Below, in pieces: positions 21 through 22,569 of a stretch of DNA of 42,756 bases. The number at the start of each line of letters is the position of its first letter. The stretch's first letter is position 1. The notes beneath the pieces are model-generated. The model made no database searches. It had not been told where the DNA came from and worked only from the letters and a program-made list of their open reading frames with translations. Location of the stretch: contig JAFVHP010000041.1 of assembly GCA_017474455.1 (NCBI GenBank), positions 1-42,756 on the forward strand, in the 5' to 3' direction. Made by a program: the position numbers and the translations under genes. This stretch comes from Lachnospiraceae bacterium (GTDB lineage: Bacteria > Bacillota > Clostridia > Lachnospirales > Lachnospiraceae).

Positions 21-833
21 TTATTCTTTTACTGTCGCGATATATTCCATGTCACCCGTTACGGGTATCCCGGGATCCGATATAACGATCCCCGGTACGG
101 ATCCTCTTTCCTCCAGACCCATCACAAAATGACACAGGCCGATCCCAACGTCGATCTTCTGCAGATCGCCGGCGGCGTCGCTGACGTATCCCCTGTCCTT
201 TTTTTCATAGAAATGGTATGCGCCATCCTTAAGGATGATCCTCCAGGGCTGTTTGTTGACAGCGGACGGAGCCCACCTCACCATTTCGGTCAGGTTGGCG
301 ATCTCCTCTTTTTTCTGTCCCGACAGAGGTGTATCCAATGAGCCGTCGAAGAAGAGCTTCTCTGCAGGGAGCCTCGAATCGGCGCCTACGCCCCTGCGCA
401 TCAGCGATTCCTTAAGGGAACGCCTGGCGGCGGGATAGCCCAGAGGGCTGATGCACGGCATCATCTCCCCTTCCTTAAGGCCGGCCGCTTTCTCAAACTG
501 CTCCCTCTTCATCGTCCCTCCGATCCAGGTCGTCCCTATACCGAGGGACCAGGCATACAGGACCAGCTTTTCAAATGCGTATCCGAAAGCAGCGTCCGCA
601 TAGGGCTTTTTGTCCACGATCCCGGCGACGTACAGCTTTTCACCGGACAGTACCGGGCTGGATAACCCGTACTCTTCCGCATCCAGGAATACGAAACGGA
701 CAGGGATCCCGAAAGGTTCTTCAATTCCCGCCGCATACTCCTTAATCTTTGCAAGATCCTCATCCGTGATCTTCCTGCCGTCAAAACTGCGCACGCTTTT
801 CCTTGTTTATATCAGATCCATCAATGCTGACAT
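21..833 (-). pseudogene. Nitroreductase-family flavoprotein with in-frame TAA at codon 9
   Basis: FMN-dependent nitroreductase-like oxidoreductase, about 270 codons, related to the clostridial two-half nitroreductases. Visible segments are VRSFDGRKI near the N-terminus, WAPSAVNKQPWRI (the family's substrate/FMN loop) and a C-terminal VGIGLCHFVMGLEE helix. The natural start appears to be the ATG at 833, 7 nt after GAGGAG, giving MSALMDLI, then TAA (809-807), then TRKSVRSFDG in the same frame. The TAA falls where relatives normally have a sense codon just before the FMN-phosphate-binding R-K/R-S motif. Translation could restart at GTG 794, which has AAGGA about 7 nt upstream, giving 257 residues that lack RKS. 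It lies 28 bp downstream of the alcohol dehydrogenase remnant, probably in one transcript. The family call is solid. Whether the gene is dead, reinitiated or affected by a sequencing error cannot be told from sequence alone. Confidence 0.75.
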
Positions 834-861
834 ATCATGCCTCCTCACTGGTGTAAACTTG

Positions 862-1038
862 TCAGATCATCAGACGGTATATCTTTTCACAGTCTTCCGC
901 GTCCAGCCTGACAAAACCGTCGATCACGCCGTTTCGTCCGTTGCCGTAACAAAGCACACGGACCAGTTCCGGAATATCTTCCTCCGTTTCTTTTCCGAAA
1001 ACAAAATAAGCAGGAGAATAAAAAGTGAAATTATCCAT
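862..1038 (-). pseudogene. Iron-containing alcohol dehydrogenase remnant (internal in-frame deletion)
   Basis: A 58-codon reading frame starting at ATG 1038, 7 nt after GGAGGA, and ending in TGA. Its first 16 residues, MDNFTFYSPAYFVFGK, match the N-terminus of butanol/iron-type alcohol dehydrogenases. From about residue 17 it reads like their extreme C-terminus: a DIPELVR helix, then YGNGR, GFVRLDAEDC and EKIYRLM. Family members are about 380-400 residues, so roughly 330 residues are missing, including the NAD-binding GGGS region and all iron ligands. The join is in frame and start, stop and ribosome binding site are intact, so a small protein could still be made but could not be a dehydrogenase. 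It precedes the damaged nitroreductase by 28 bp. An unrelated genuine small protein is possible but less likely given the matches at both ends. Confidence 0.7.
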
Positions 1039-1059
1039 GCTGTACTCCTCCTTTTTATG

Positions 1060-1070
1060 TATAGACTATA
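1060..1070. promoter_or_regulatory. TATAGACTATA palindrome ahead of the ADH remnant
   Basis: An 11-bp perfect palindrome (TATAG-A-CTATA) about 20 bp upstream of the minus-strand ATG at 1038, between its ribosome binding site and the repeat array. It could be an operator or part of an AT-rich -10 region. No regulator gene adjoins it. Confidence 0.3.
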
Positions 1071-1076
1071 TACTTA

Positions 1077-1672
1077 CAACAACAATTCTATAATCCATAA
1101 TCCAGGCCGTATCAAAACTGAAAATGACGGCCCACAACAACATTTCTGTAATCCAGGCCGTATCCAAAACTGAAAATGACGGCCTACAACAACAATTCTA
1201 TTATCCAGGCCGTCTCAAAAACTGAAAATGACGGCCTACAACAACATTTCTGTAATCCAGGCCGCCTCCAAAGCTGAAAATGACGGCCTGCAGCAACAAT
1301 TCTATTATCCAGGCCGTATCCAAGACTGAAAATGACGGCCTGCAGCAACATTTCTGTAATCCAGGCCGTATCCGAAGCTGAAAATGACGGCCCACAACAG
1401 CATTTCTGTAATCCAGGCCGTATCCGAAGCTGAAAATGACGGTCTGCAACAACATTTCTGTAATCCAGGCCGTATTCAAGACTGAAAATGACGGCCTGCA
1501 ACAACATTTCTGTAATCCAGGCCGTATCCAAAGCTGAAAATGACGGCCTACAGCAACAATTCTATTATCCAGGCCGTATCCAAGACTGAAAATGACGGCC
1601 TGCAGCAACATTTCTGTAATCCAGGCCGTATTCAAGACTGAAAATGACAGCCTACAGCAATAATTCTATACT
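1077..1672. repeat. Tandem array of eleven 52-bp hairpin repeats
   Basis: Copies begin (at CCAGGCCG) at 1102, 1153, 1205, 1257, 1309, 1361, 1413, 1465, 1517, 1569 and 1621, so the period is 52 bp except for a first copy of 51. A partial tail precedes copy 1 and copy 11 decays into unique sequence. Each unit carries CAGGCCGT and, about 18 nt on, ACGGCCTG, which can form an 8-bp stem. The loop, with core CTGAAAATG, holds most of the variation. The inter-hairpin segment has two alternating forms, CATTTCTGTAAT and CAATTCTATTAT. 52 bp is close to five helical turns, so the stems would lie on one face of the DNA. The array fills the space between the divergent ADH remnant and the ybaK-like gene. 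Open frames across it merely reflect that 3 x 52 is divisible by three. It has no unique spacers, so it is not CRISPR. Function unknown. Confidence 0.95.
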
Positions 1673-1730
1673 TTTTCTGTATGCTCTGCATTTATAATAT
1701 CCATAGCGGTTTTCAGAAGGGGGCTGTAGT

Positions 1731-2207
1731 ATGTCACTGCAAAAGGCAATTGATTTTCTAACTGAAAAAGGGTTCGGGGACAGGGTGATCATTCCGGAAC
1801 AAAGCAGCGCGACAGTTGAAGAAGCGGCCCGGGCGATCGGCTGCGAACCGGGGATGATAGCTAAAACGCTCTCCTTTCTGCAGAAGGAAAGACCTGTGCT
1901 GATACTGGCAGAGGGAAACGTGCGTATAGACAACAGAAAGTATAAAGACCGGTTCGGCTGCAAAGCCGTCATGATCCCCGCAGACAGGGTCGAAGACCTG
2001 ATCGGACATGATATCGGCGGGGTCTGCCCATTCGGCATCAACGAAGGCGTCACTGTTTATCTGGATGAGAGCCTGAAGCTCCATGAGACCGTATACCCTG
2101 CGGCAGGCAGCAGCCGAAGCGCCGTCCGGCTCTCGATCGCCGAACTCGAACAGTGCAGCGGATATACGGAATGGGTCGACGTCTGCAGGCAGCCTGCAGA
2201 TGAATGA
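1731..2207 (+). CDS. YbaK/ProX-type aminoacyl-tRNA deacylase
   Basis: 158 residues, typical of single-domain YbaK/EbsC proteins, which hydrolyse mischarged aminoacyl-tRNAs such as Cys-tRNA(Pro) in the cytoplasm. Diagnostic parts are SATVEEAARAIGCEPGMIAKTLSF with the invariant lysine at K45, the VRIDNRKYKDRFG segment, GGVCPFGI (the substrate-pocket GxxxPxG loop) and the terminal AGSSRSAVRLSIAEL. The start is ATG 1731, about 8 nt after AGAAGGGGG. It is the first gene past the 52-bp array and reads away from it, so the array occupies its upstream region. The next gene follows after 39 bp on the same strand. Which tRNA it edits (Cys, Ala or other) cannot be told from sequence. Confidence 0.9.
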   Translation: MSLQKAIDFLTEKGFGDRVIIPEQSSATVEEAARAIGCEPGMIAKTLSFLQKERPVLILAEGNVRIDNRKYKDRFGCKAVMIPADRVEDLIGHDIGGVCPFGINEGVTVYLDESLKLHETVYPAAGSSRSAVRLSIAELEQCSGYTEWVDVCRQPADE

Positions 2208-20187: not shown

Positions 20188-22569
20188 TCAGTATCCGCTG
20201 ATCTGTCTTCTGCCGAACCGGCCGGAAAGGAACAGGAAGCCGGCATAGCCTTCTTCATTCATCAATCCGGACACGCTGGATGCGGGAGGTATAACTACCT
20301 CATACATCTTCCCGCCATCTCTATAATCGATAACAAGTCTTACATCCGGGCGTTTTGCGAGTTCATTCCAGACGACCGAATAAAAGCTGATCCATTTTTC
20401 CGTCCTGATAACAACATCAGCGCCGGGCCTTGCGTTCCTGATCCTTACTGCCGCATCCTTATTGAATGCCGCATAACCGGAGATCGGGATCCTCTGGGCT
20501 ACCGAACCGCATTCGGTACATTCGTATACCATCTCGCCGTCGATAGTCGGTGTCGCTTCCCTCGTCACATTCCATACATAGTTGTGTTCATGGTGGTATT
20601 CTGCGGGAGGTTCAGGCTTAGGTTCCGGTTTCGGCTCAGGCTTGGGTTCAGGCTTAGGTTCCGGTTTGGGTTCCGGATCGGGTTCGGGCTTAGGTTCAGG
20701 TTCTTTGTCTTTAAACTTATAAATGATCGTTTTATATGGCGTATTGACTTCAGAAACATTTACCGTGTATGTTCCGGTAATATCACAATCCGTATGCACT
20801 ATGGCGGCAGCATTTGGATCTGCGACAGCCCAGGTAACGGAAATATCCGCCTTGCCGCTGCCGTCCAGGTCAATGTCCTTGGTCCCTTCGGGGAGAGTAA
20901 ATCCGGACTCGCCCCACTGACGGTTATATACATACACATCATCCGGAATCGAAGCAGAACCGGATGTCAGATCGATGGTACAGGTCTGGCGGTCGGCCGT
21001 TATGATCTCAAAGGTCACTGCTTTCGCAGGCATGACAAGGCCGCCGTCATATTCGAAAATATCGATGCTTATTCCTTCAAAGGTAATGTCCGTGACATAC
21101 TTTCCTTCAGGAGGCGTATCATATCCGATATAGACCGTATCACCTTCCGCTGCTTCAGTGATCACTGCAGTCTTTTCATGATCGCTGTATGCGTGGCCTC
21201 CGCCGACGACCGTGATCGTATACACGGCAGGCTCAATGACTTCGGTCCAGCCAGCGTATACTGTTTTTGTCTCCTCCAGCCCGAGAGTGAAATCAAATGC
21301 CTCGGTGCACCCCTTATCGTTGAACCAGCCGTCGAAAGTCCAGCCTTCAGCCACCGGATCCTCAGGTTTTGCGGGCTTTTCACCTTTATCTATGGTCTGT
21401 GCCTCCGGAGCCGTACCGTGTCCCTGCACATCAAAACTCAATATGACCTGAACATCCGCAGCGGCAATTTCAAATTCTGTCTTCAGGAGGATCTCCCCGG
21501 CAAATTTCATACCGAGTGTGTGCGTCCCGGAGGAGAGAGTCTTCAGATACTCTTCCTTCAGCGTCAGTTTTACACTGCCCTCCGTAACGTCATAATTGGC
21601 AGGATCCAGCGTTTCGCCATCCATGGTAGCACCCTGGAAGTTGGCATAGCTGGTATCACTGTCTCCATTTCCTTTGGCAGTAAAATCCAAATCTCCCGTA
21701 CCGTCCCATTCTGAAGGCGTTTCTGTCCACGAATACGGCTGCTTCCACAGGTATTTGACCGTAAAATCATGATCTATATACTCATGGATGCCCATGGGCG
21801 GTTCGGAACGGTGGCCGTCTATTTCCAGCGCGTCAAATTCCATTCCCTCGGGTGGTGTTACGATATCGTCCGTCGGTTTGTTGATGAAATAAGCTTCTCC
21901 GTTGTTCTGATAGGGCACATATACGTAATCCACCCAGTTTGTGCCCTTCGTTCCGCCATTCGCGTCGTATGTGATCTTATATAACGACTTCCACAGGTAT
22001 TTGACCGTAAAATCATGATCGATGTATTCATTGATGCCCATGGGCGGTGCGGAACGGTGTCCGTCTATTTCCAGCGCGTCAAACTCCATTCCCTCGGGTG
22101 GTGTTACGATATCGTCCGTCGGCTTGTTGATCAGATAAGCTTCTCCGTTGTTCTTATAGGGCACATCTACATGATCCACCCAGTTTGCGCCCTTCGTTCC
22201 GCCGTTCGCGTCGTATGTGATCTTATATAACGACTTCCACAGGTATTTGACCGTAAAATCATGATCGATATATTCATTGATGCCCATGGGCGGTGCGGAA
22301 CGGTGTCCGTCTATTTCCAGCGCGTCAAACTCCATTCCTTCCGGCGGTGTTACGATATCGTCCGTCGGCTTGTTGATCAGATAAGCTTCTCCGTTGTTTT
22401 TATAAGGCAGATCCACATGATCAACCCAGTTTTCGCCCGTTGTTCCGCCGTTTGCGTCAAATGTGATCCGGTAAGTCTCATCTGCGTGCACCGTCAGACG
22501 AAATCCCGGCAGCAGGGCTGCTATCAGGCAGATCATAAGCAGCAGGCTCAGCAGTCTCTTCCCTTTCAT
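20188..22569 (-). CDS. Large secreted repeat protein with InlB B-type repeat and Pro-Glu-Lys linker
   Basis: 793 residues from ATG 22569 (GGAG 8 nt upstream). A signal peptide (MKGKRLLSLLLMICLIAALL ... VHA) is followed by three near-identical 82-residue repeats (33-278), each opening Y-K/R-I-T-F/Y-D-A-N-G-G and ending FTVKYLWK. Next comes an X-module-like Ig region (YDVTEGSVKLTLKEEYLKTL, SSGTHTLGMKFAGE), then a Listeria/Bacteroides-type InlB B-repeat (EGWTFDGWFNDKGCTEAFDF) and a region beginning TITVVGGGHAYSD. A proline-rich EPKPEPKPEP linker follows, then an ECTECG pair and a novel C-terminus ending GRFGRRQISGY. No LPXTG, transmembrane tail or other anchor is seen, so it is probably released or held non-covalently. 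A role in surface adhesion or envelope interaction is inference from the repeats. Confidence 0.85.
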   Translation of the reverse strand: MKGKRLLSLLLMICLIAALLPGFRLTVHADETYRITFDANGGTTGENWVDHVDLPYKNNGEAYLINKPTDDIVTPPEGMEFDALEIDGHRSAPPMGINEYIDHDFTVKYLWKSLYKITYDANGGTKGANWVDHVDVPYKNNGEAYLINKPTDDIVTPPEGMEFDALEIDGHRSAPPMGINEYIDHDFTVKYLWKSLYKITYDANGGTKGTNWVDYVYVPYQNNGEAYFINKPTDDIVTPPEGMEFDALEIDGHRSEPPMGIHEYIDHDFTVKYLWKQPYSWTETPSEWDGTGDLDFTAKGNGDSDTSYANFQGATMDGETLDPANYDVTEGSVKLTLKEEYLKTLSSGTHTLGMKFAGEILLKTEFEIAAADVQVILSFDVQGHGTAPEAQTIDKGEKPAKPEDPVAEGWTFDGWFNDKGCTEAFDFTLGLEETKTVYAGWTEVIEPAVYTITVVGGGHAYSDHEKTAVITEAAEGDTVYIGYDTPPEGKYVTDITFEGISIDIFEYDGGLVMPAKAVTFEIITADRQTCTIDLTSGSASIPDDVYVYNRQWGESGFTLPEGTKDIDLDGSGKADISVTWAVADPNAAAIVHTDCDITGTYTVNVSEVNTPYKTIIYKFKDKEPEPKPEPDPEPKPEPKPEPKPEPKPEPKPEPPAEYHHEHNYVWNVTREATPTIDGEMVYECTECGSVAQRIPISGYAAFNKDAAVRIRNARPGADVVIRTEKWISFYSVVWNELAKRPDVRLVIDYRDGGKMYEVVIPPASSVSGLMNEEGYAGFLFLSGRFGRRQISGY
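21736..22473 (-). repeat. Three tandem 246-bp coding repeats
   Basis: Three in-frame 246-bp (82-codon) units inside the secreted-protein gene. They are nearly identical at DNA level, including shared synonymous positions, which points to recent duplication or gene conversion. Differences concentrate in a few codons such as DHVDLPYKNN versus DYVYVPYQNN. Confidence 0.92.

Follow-up and report, generated by a model that had tools for sequence, protein, structure and literature searches.

BIME and REP elements are intergenic and dispersed, with alternating inverted motifs, regular spacing, and tandem expansion, and BIMEs bind IHF and DNA gyrase (PMC2817692). In Streptococcus pneumoniae, the BOX elements are modular, dispersed, and intergenic and have the form boxA-(boxB)n-boxC (PMC3049150). 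The operators of CytR, a member of the LacI family, offer a precedent in geometry: half-site spacing is flexible, and large spacers between half-sites tend to whole helical turns (PMC3454398). CRISPR loci are regular intergenic tandem arrays of identical repeats with unique spacers. Dispersed bacterial repeats are usually defined by their sequence; in the arrays described here, sequence is largely free and spacing is fixed. In the open-access papers searched, we recognized no description of this array geometry.

The locus lies in a window of 42,756 bp, positions 1–42,756 of contig JAFVHP010000041.1 (C23) from the genome of a Lachnospiraceae bacterium (GCA_017474455.1; G000). Like BIMEs, the arrays are dispersed intergenic copies in alternating orientation, present at seven contig places in G000. 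Unlike REP elements, their conserved word is ~6 bp with an interior of 9–30 bp instead of a compact stem-loop, and they lack a constant GTAG tag, which was seen by eye only in some units of the arrays on C23 and C39. CGTC was seen by eye on one side in several arrays, and the REP class with this tag has a stem of 8–9 and a loop of 4–5, a range outside which the array stem and loop fall. The tagged palindrome of REPs, compact and with GTAG or CGTC unpaired at one end, was not found in the arrays, whose interior lacks extended pairing. BOX is the closest system in layout for the arrays of a second genome, bin71, where by eye a variable number of central units lies between conserved ends. The likeness is one of layout; the conserved feature of the arrays is half-site geometry, and end modules common to the arrays were not found between most G000 arrays by blastn. 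CytR serves here as a precedent for geometry, with no relation by descent claimed; its sites are single promoter operators in gamma-proteobacteria, from which the present arrays differ. The likeness to CRISPR ends at the regular intergenic tandem layout. Variants of the inner segments recur, as do those of the linkers, unique spacers are absent, and a CRISPR reading is unsupported, as the preliminary description of this DNA had already concluded.

Results

The Window Array and Its Flanks

In the window, TRF reported a repeat at 1098–1667 with a period of 52 bp, 11.0 copies, 88% matches, and a score of 839, and units placed in register span 1098–1669 (no strand assigned). The eleven 52-bp units of the preliminary description are thereby confirmed, and its outer limits of 1077–1672 are fair, with 1077–1103 read as a partial linker lacking a left half-site and 1654–1672 as a partial linker at the right edge. 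The first unit has an inner segment one base shorter, and units 5 and 10 are identical. Register and half-site scoring place the first right-type half-site, AGGCCG, at 1104–1109 on the plus strand; the last left-type half-site, a degenerate CAGCCT, lies at 1648–1653 on the minus strand. Linker sites of 33 bp, with half-sites 27 bp apart, repeat every 52 bp without an assigned strand: site 1 (CGGCCC-N21-AGGCCG) at 1128–1160, site 6 (left half-site CGGCCC) at 1388–1420, site 7 (left half-site degenerate, CGGTCT) at 1440–1472, and the sites returned by a free-gap search at 1180–1212, 1232–1264, 1284–1316, and 1336–1368 (sites 2 to 5) and at 1492–1524, 1544–1576, and 1596–1628 (sites 8 to 10). The period of 52 bp agrees with the earlier statement that this is not a protein repeat. 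The 8-bp stem once ascribed to every unit holds in full, with eight Watson–Crick pairs, for 3 of 11 units and was overstated for the remainder; the inner 7 bp pair in 6/11 units and the 6-bp half-sites in 7/11.

To the right of the array lies a ybaK-like aminoacyl-tRNA editing gene (1731–2207, plus strand; tRNA_edit PF04073, E 6.7e-26). To the left, the ORF list contains a remnant ORF of 58 amino acids (862–1038, minus strand) for which the Pfam search returned no family; it looks like what is left of an iron alcohol dehydrogenase gene, its beginning, after deletion of the larger part. Two decayed neighbors had been proposed: of these, only ORF 862–1038 looks decayed; the nitroreductase ORF at 21–794 proved to be open over 257 codons with Pfam support.

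Arrays Elsewhere in the Genome

Six contig places besides the window array carry arrays in G000: C15 at ~98.8–99.6 kb (hereafter C15_99k), the end of C15, C17, the start of C21, C39, and the end of C47. The C39 array (C39:12627–13095) was found with a 104-base query from the window, and the further places, which share half-sites and differ in sequence, came from looser pattern searches. Two specific patterns gave 12 and 66 matches in G000, the latter with three half-sites, against 0 for the reversed-pattern control. The looser patterns gave 43+17 matches vs. 7+10 in the reversed control, 44+36 vs. 23+13, and 59 vs. 51, and the free-gap search gave 62 vs. 50; because these controls are sizeable, only regular clusters were counted there.

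Comparison of the G000 arrays by blastn matched C23 with C39, the C15 end with the C47 end, C21 with the C47 end, and the C15 end with C21. The C17 and C15_99k arrays matched no other array at E 1e-4, and their geometry is still the common one. The C15 and C47 ends match at 98% over 116 bp in opposite orientation, so the assembly may have split a single array between them. The contigs break within arrays at the C15 end, the C21 start, and the C47 end; arrays could explain some of the assembly breaks, and their number and length in this assembly may be underestimated. A short tandem repeat, ACTACGCAGATTACACAG-like, follows straight after the C21 array (L026, ~415–520).

The arrays lie outside the long ORFs found, between divergent, tandem, and convergent gene pairs. 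C15_99k is situated between convergent genes, and the genes beside the C15 and C47 ends terminate toward the array. A Pfam search of ten array neighbors returned varied genes. The C39 and C21 arrays adjoin MatE-family transporter genes (L017, 6435–7832, and L026, 735–2087, respectively), and the C47-end array and one bin71 array (L061) adjoin ABC transporter genes. With two MatE and two ABC transporters among them, the neighbors may not be wholly random.

Site Geometry and Sequence Conservation

The site common to the arrays is a 33-bp dyad, CGGC(C/T)T-N21-A(A/G)GCCG, whose half-sites are spaced by 27 bp. In the G000 arrays, left-type (CGGCYT) and right-type (ARGCCG) half-sites alternate. Among exact half-sites in G000, 52 of the 56 steps from a left half-site to the next right one measure 27 bp, a count that takes in both the C15 and C47 ends, which overlap; the exceptions are 41 bp (2 cases), 79 bp (1), and 28 bp (1). 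When the gap was left free (linker N5–35), 32 of the 33 forward array matches listed had a linker of 21 bp, and the single exception among them (35 bp, C21:194) starts within an inner segment, at an additional CGGCCT. In C39, a single linker is shorter by 13 bp. The step from a right half-site to the next left one is 25 bp in most G000 arrays and 15, 35, or 36 bp in C15_99k, where the unit is 167 bp by addition. Counted over exact half-sites, it is 25 bp in 34/58 cases and 15, 35, or 36 bp in 13; the remaining 11 are steps of 11 (2 cases), 24, or 26 bp or longer jumps over degenerate half-sites.

Neighboring dyads in G000 are consequently 42, 52, or 62/63 bp apart, corresponding to ~4, 5, and 6 helical turns. 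Dyad spacings are 51/52 bp in bin71 and 53/63/64 bp in a congener, G066. A phase test on the seven distinct spacings (42, 51, 52, 53, 62, 63, and 64 bp) gave R 0.895 and p 0.00015, with periods of 10.2–10.7, p obtained by random draw from 36–70, and a scan peak at ~10.75; the weight of this result is lowered by the possibility that 51–53 and 62–64 are each one spacing with small indels, and on three spacing classes the phase is only suggestive. Spacings close to whole turns recur between arrays and across the three genomes, which supports the proposal of the preliminary description that same-face phasing points to multiple binding sites.

Across five G000 arrays, the GCCG cores are kept while the inner and linker sequences diverge. 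Core mismatch was 0–0.05 within and 0–0.04 between arrays, compared with 0.13–0.61 and 0.40–0.80 for inner segments and 0.17–0.37 and 0.28–0.69 for linkers. With one array flipped, the values were 0–0.04 for cores, 0.47–0.87 for inner segments, and 0.30–0.67 for linkers; C21 and the C15 end were closer in this orientation (inner 0.47, linker 0.30). The center of the linker dyad is A/T in 47/47 distinct linkers of G000, 24/24 of bin71, and 5/6 of G066. This observation was made post hoc; by clusters at 70% it holds in 17/18 (P ~0.001 vs. local A/T frequency) and by clusters at 60% in 6/7. Under single linkage at 60%, 81 linkers from G000 and bin71 chain into one cluster, so a remote common descent of the linkers is possible.

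Arrays in Other Genomes

A four-half-site pattern searched against the GTDB contig set returned eight stretches, seven from the uncultured Lachnospiraceae E0_DP__bin71 and one from an Acidobacteria contig. The latter (L060) has four half-sites only and was dismissed as chance. The bin71 metagenome-assembled genome (G612) contains at least seven arrays with a shifted half-site, AAAAAGCCG/CGGCTTTTT; the step over the linker is 27 bp, and that inside is 24 or 25 bp. Exact left-to-right steps in bin71 are 27 bp in 27/32 cases, with the others at 35 to 99 bp. Compared by blastn, the seven loci match in all 21 pairings, to some extent via their units, and by eye they have left and right edges in common and a variable number of units. 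Other shared intergenic repeats, including GTCCGC...GCGGAC palindromes, were seen by eye beside the bin71 arrays (flanks of L061–L067).

The congener G066 has two dispersed copies, which match at 72% over 162 bp and have 27-bp linkers, half-sites of GGCCG type, and inner spacings of 26, 36, and 37 bp. The left-to-right step is 27 bp in 6/8 cases, and one step of 42 bp is unexplained. Because the search patterns that led to the loci in bin71 and G066 prescribe two linkers, part of the 27-bp count of these loci is due to selection. Single matches in congeners occurred at the level of the control, so the case for G066 rests on reading its sequence. Those in G016, G071, G073, and G031 (4/61 congeners) were set aside on this account, as were those in G062, G004, G075, and G008, for which the control matched 8/62 genomes.

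Beyond these genomes, the distribution is narrow. The spacing pattern applied family-wide was found in 1/397 genomes, and a DNA blast of four units hit 1/61 genomes, in both cases G000 itself. Extending the search to the genome and its relatives, as had been proposed, thus showed recurrence in G000, bin71, and G066. Scans of genome contigs and viral contigs for the exact unit gave no match, nor did the window array match phage or plasmid records. Single three-half-site matches in 28 viral contigs were attributed to chance, as no chain exceeded five loose cores. A wider search matched 14/395 genomes, G000 and G066 among them; the reversed control matched 22/395, and single matches accordingly mean little. 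Nine others of the 14 were judged by eye to be coding or GC-rich chance matches.

In G210, G090, and G099, paired TTCGGCTAA/TTAGCCGAA-like palindromes lie upstream of an ATPase-type gene. They are probably a separate operator and were set aside because their second spacing (33, 33, and 27 in the six-base metric) fits the phase poorly. Paired CGGCTAA/TTAGCCG-like palindromes occur at ~1495–1600 of L118, L120, and L121, from three other genera, the 27 bp between their half-sites being fixed by the search pattern. The neighboring gene encodes an AAA_14/DUF4143 ATPase in L118 and L121, and presumably, from its look, an ATPase in L120; these palindromes could be an autoregulatory operator.

Discussion

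The repeat family is real, recurrent, intergenic, and conserved in its geometry. We put at about 0.5 the probability that it is a dispersed intergenic family of BIME/BOX-like layout whose conserved part would be a helically phased lattice for a putative dimeric DNA-binding protein. The proposal draws on sequence and spacing. A sequence-specific dimer would contact both half-sites of one linker at their fixed distance, and adjacent dimers would touch along one face of the helix, with changes in spacing by one whole turn tolerated. Arrays of 3–14 sites would nucleate a cooperative nucleoprotein filament. Because array neighbors and gene orientations vary, the output would most likely, if tentatively, be architectural or insulating, with the tract separating transcription units, and not that of a local operator. 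Units spread locally by duplication, as the identical window units 5 and 10 show, and between loci as dispersed copies of the kind seen in bin71 and G066. That the pattern occurs in a single genome of the family-wide set is not what one would expect of a basic chromosomal function. The fixed spacing is suggestive of a protein lattice on DNA; the 33-bp site could serve as bait for finding the protein. If such a lattice is confirmed, these would be satellite-like phased arrays of a kind rare in bacteria.

More conjectural, and less likely than not, is a satellite-like lattice, in which the phased dyads would load a putative cooperative architectural protein and the half-site word would shift between species (AGGCCG, AAAAAGCCG, and GGCCG-type) with the 27-bp and near-whole-turn spacings kept. 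The roles proposed for such a lattice are a domain boundary, a segregation tract, or a silencing tract, any of which it may fill.

Among the alternatives, a non-autonomous mobile or parasitic repeat of BIME/BOX-like kind fares best, and even this we regard as unlikely overall. A transposase or recombinase acting in trans would recognize the half-sites and spacings, and the repeat would have no host function. Such an element would account for arrays dispersed between different genes and for the match between the two G066 copies, one of which (L097) lies beside what we take to be a transposase-like ORF pair. It would also fit bin71, in which every pair of loci matches and the edges common by eye recall the boxA-(boxB)n-boxC plan (PMC3049150). 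The Pfam search for a Y1 transposase (PF01797) cuts both ways. It gave 1–38 matches in 8/8 other congeners, with 4 in the array-bearing G066, but none in either G000 (96.55% complete) or G612/bin71 (completeness not stated), the genomes with the most array places. Most G000 arrays, moreover, match each other only in their units, the window array is without a counterpart in the phage and plasmid records, and steps of nearly whole helical turns are not expected from slippage alone.

That the arrays are transcribed as structured RNA, forming rows of hairpins in which AGGCCG pairs with CGGCCT, is improbable. Set against 20 dinucleotide shuffles, the window array does fold better on each strand (z −4.2 and −5.9), a result that can follow from the inverted half-sites alone. 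When the half-sites were held fixed and the rest permuted, the arrays on C23, C17, C21, and C39 gave z of −0.41 to +1.11 on either strand, whereas C15_99k (−2.59 on the plus and −1.87 on the minus strand) and a bin71 array, b71_67 (−2.88 and −1.03), still folded better. The structured RNA raised in the preliminary description is thus weakly supported: 2/6 arrays fold better than their permuted versions on the plus strand, and 4/6 do so on neither strand. Terminator-like matches in L027, L026, and L061 (3, 3, and 4 vs. 0.8, 0.9, and 1.4 in shuffles) lean toward RNA. Against it, pairing next to the inner half-sites, at the bases that adjoin them on the inside, is below expectation (0.17 vs. 0.46 and 0.13 vs. 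0.36), pairing in the linker-side extension of the stem is near expectation, Rfam returned no match at gathering score for the window and 14 array loci, and the arrays keep no fixed strand relative to genes. Across arrays, the DNA reading is favored over the RNA reading, which may still apply to single arrays.

Still less probable is a cluster of operators or promoters serving the adjacent gene, here ybaK. Promoter-like matches number 8 in window positions 800–1800 vs. 2.3 expected, although they fall in repeat units and are hence non-independent. One of them, ATGACA-N17-TATACT in the degenerate last unit (1644–1672, plus strand; 10/12 consensus matches), precedes ybaK, and, judged from its letters, the repeat unit may here have given rise to a promoter for that gene. 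The two arrays beside MatE genes would also suit local regulation. The convergent setting of C15_99k and the genes that end toward the C15-end and C47-end arrays would not, and promoter-like matches in six other array regions were 1, 0, 0, 1, 0, and 0. Promoters were rejected as a general explanation on this lack of enrichment.

A neutral minisatellite expanded by slippage is very improbable: the identical units 5 and 10 and the mosaic linker forms do indicate unit duplication, but the cores are conserved across arrays amid diverged surroundings and the geometry is common to three genomes despite different sequence. Transcription aside, the solitary, unconserved unit with random stem changes by which a minisatellite was to be recognized is not what the arrays show. 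Elsewhere in the window, at 21742–22468, TRF reported a second tandem repeat of three 246-bp copies (93% matches), which may be coding, its period being divisible by 3.
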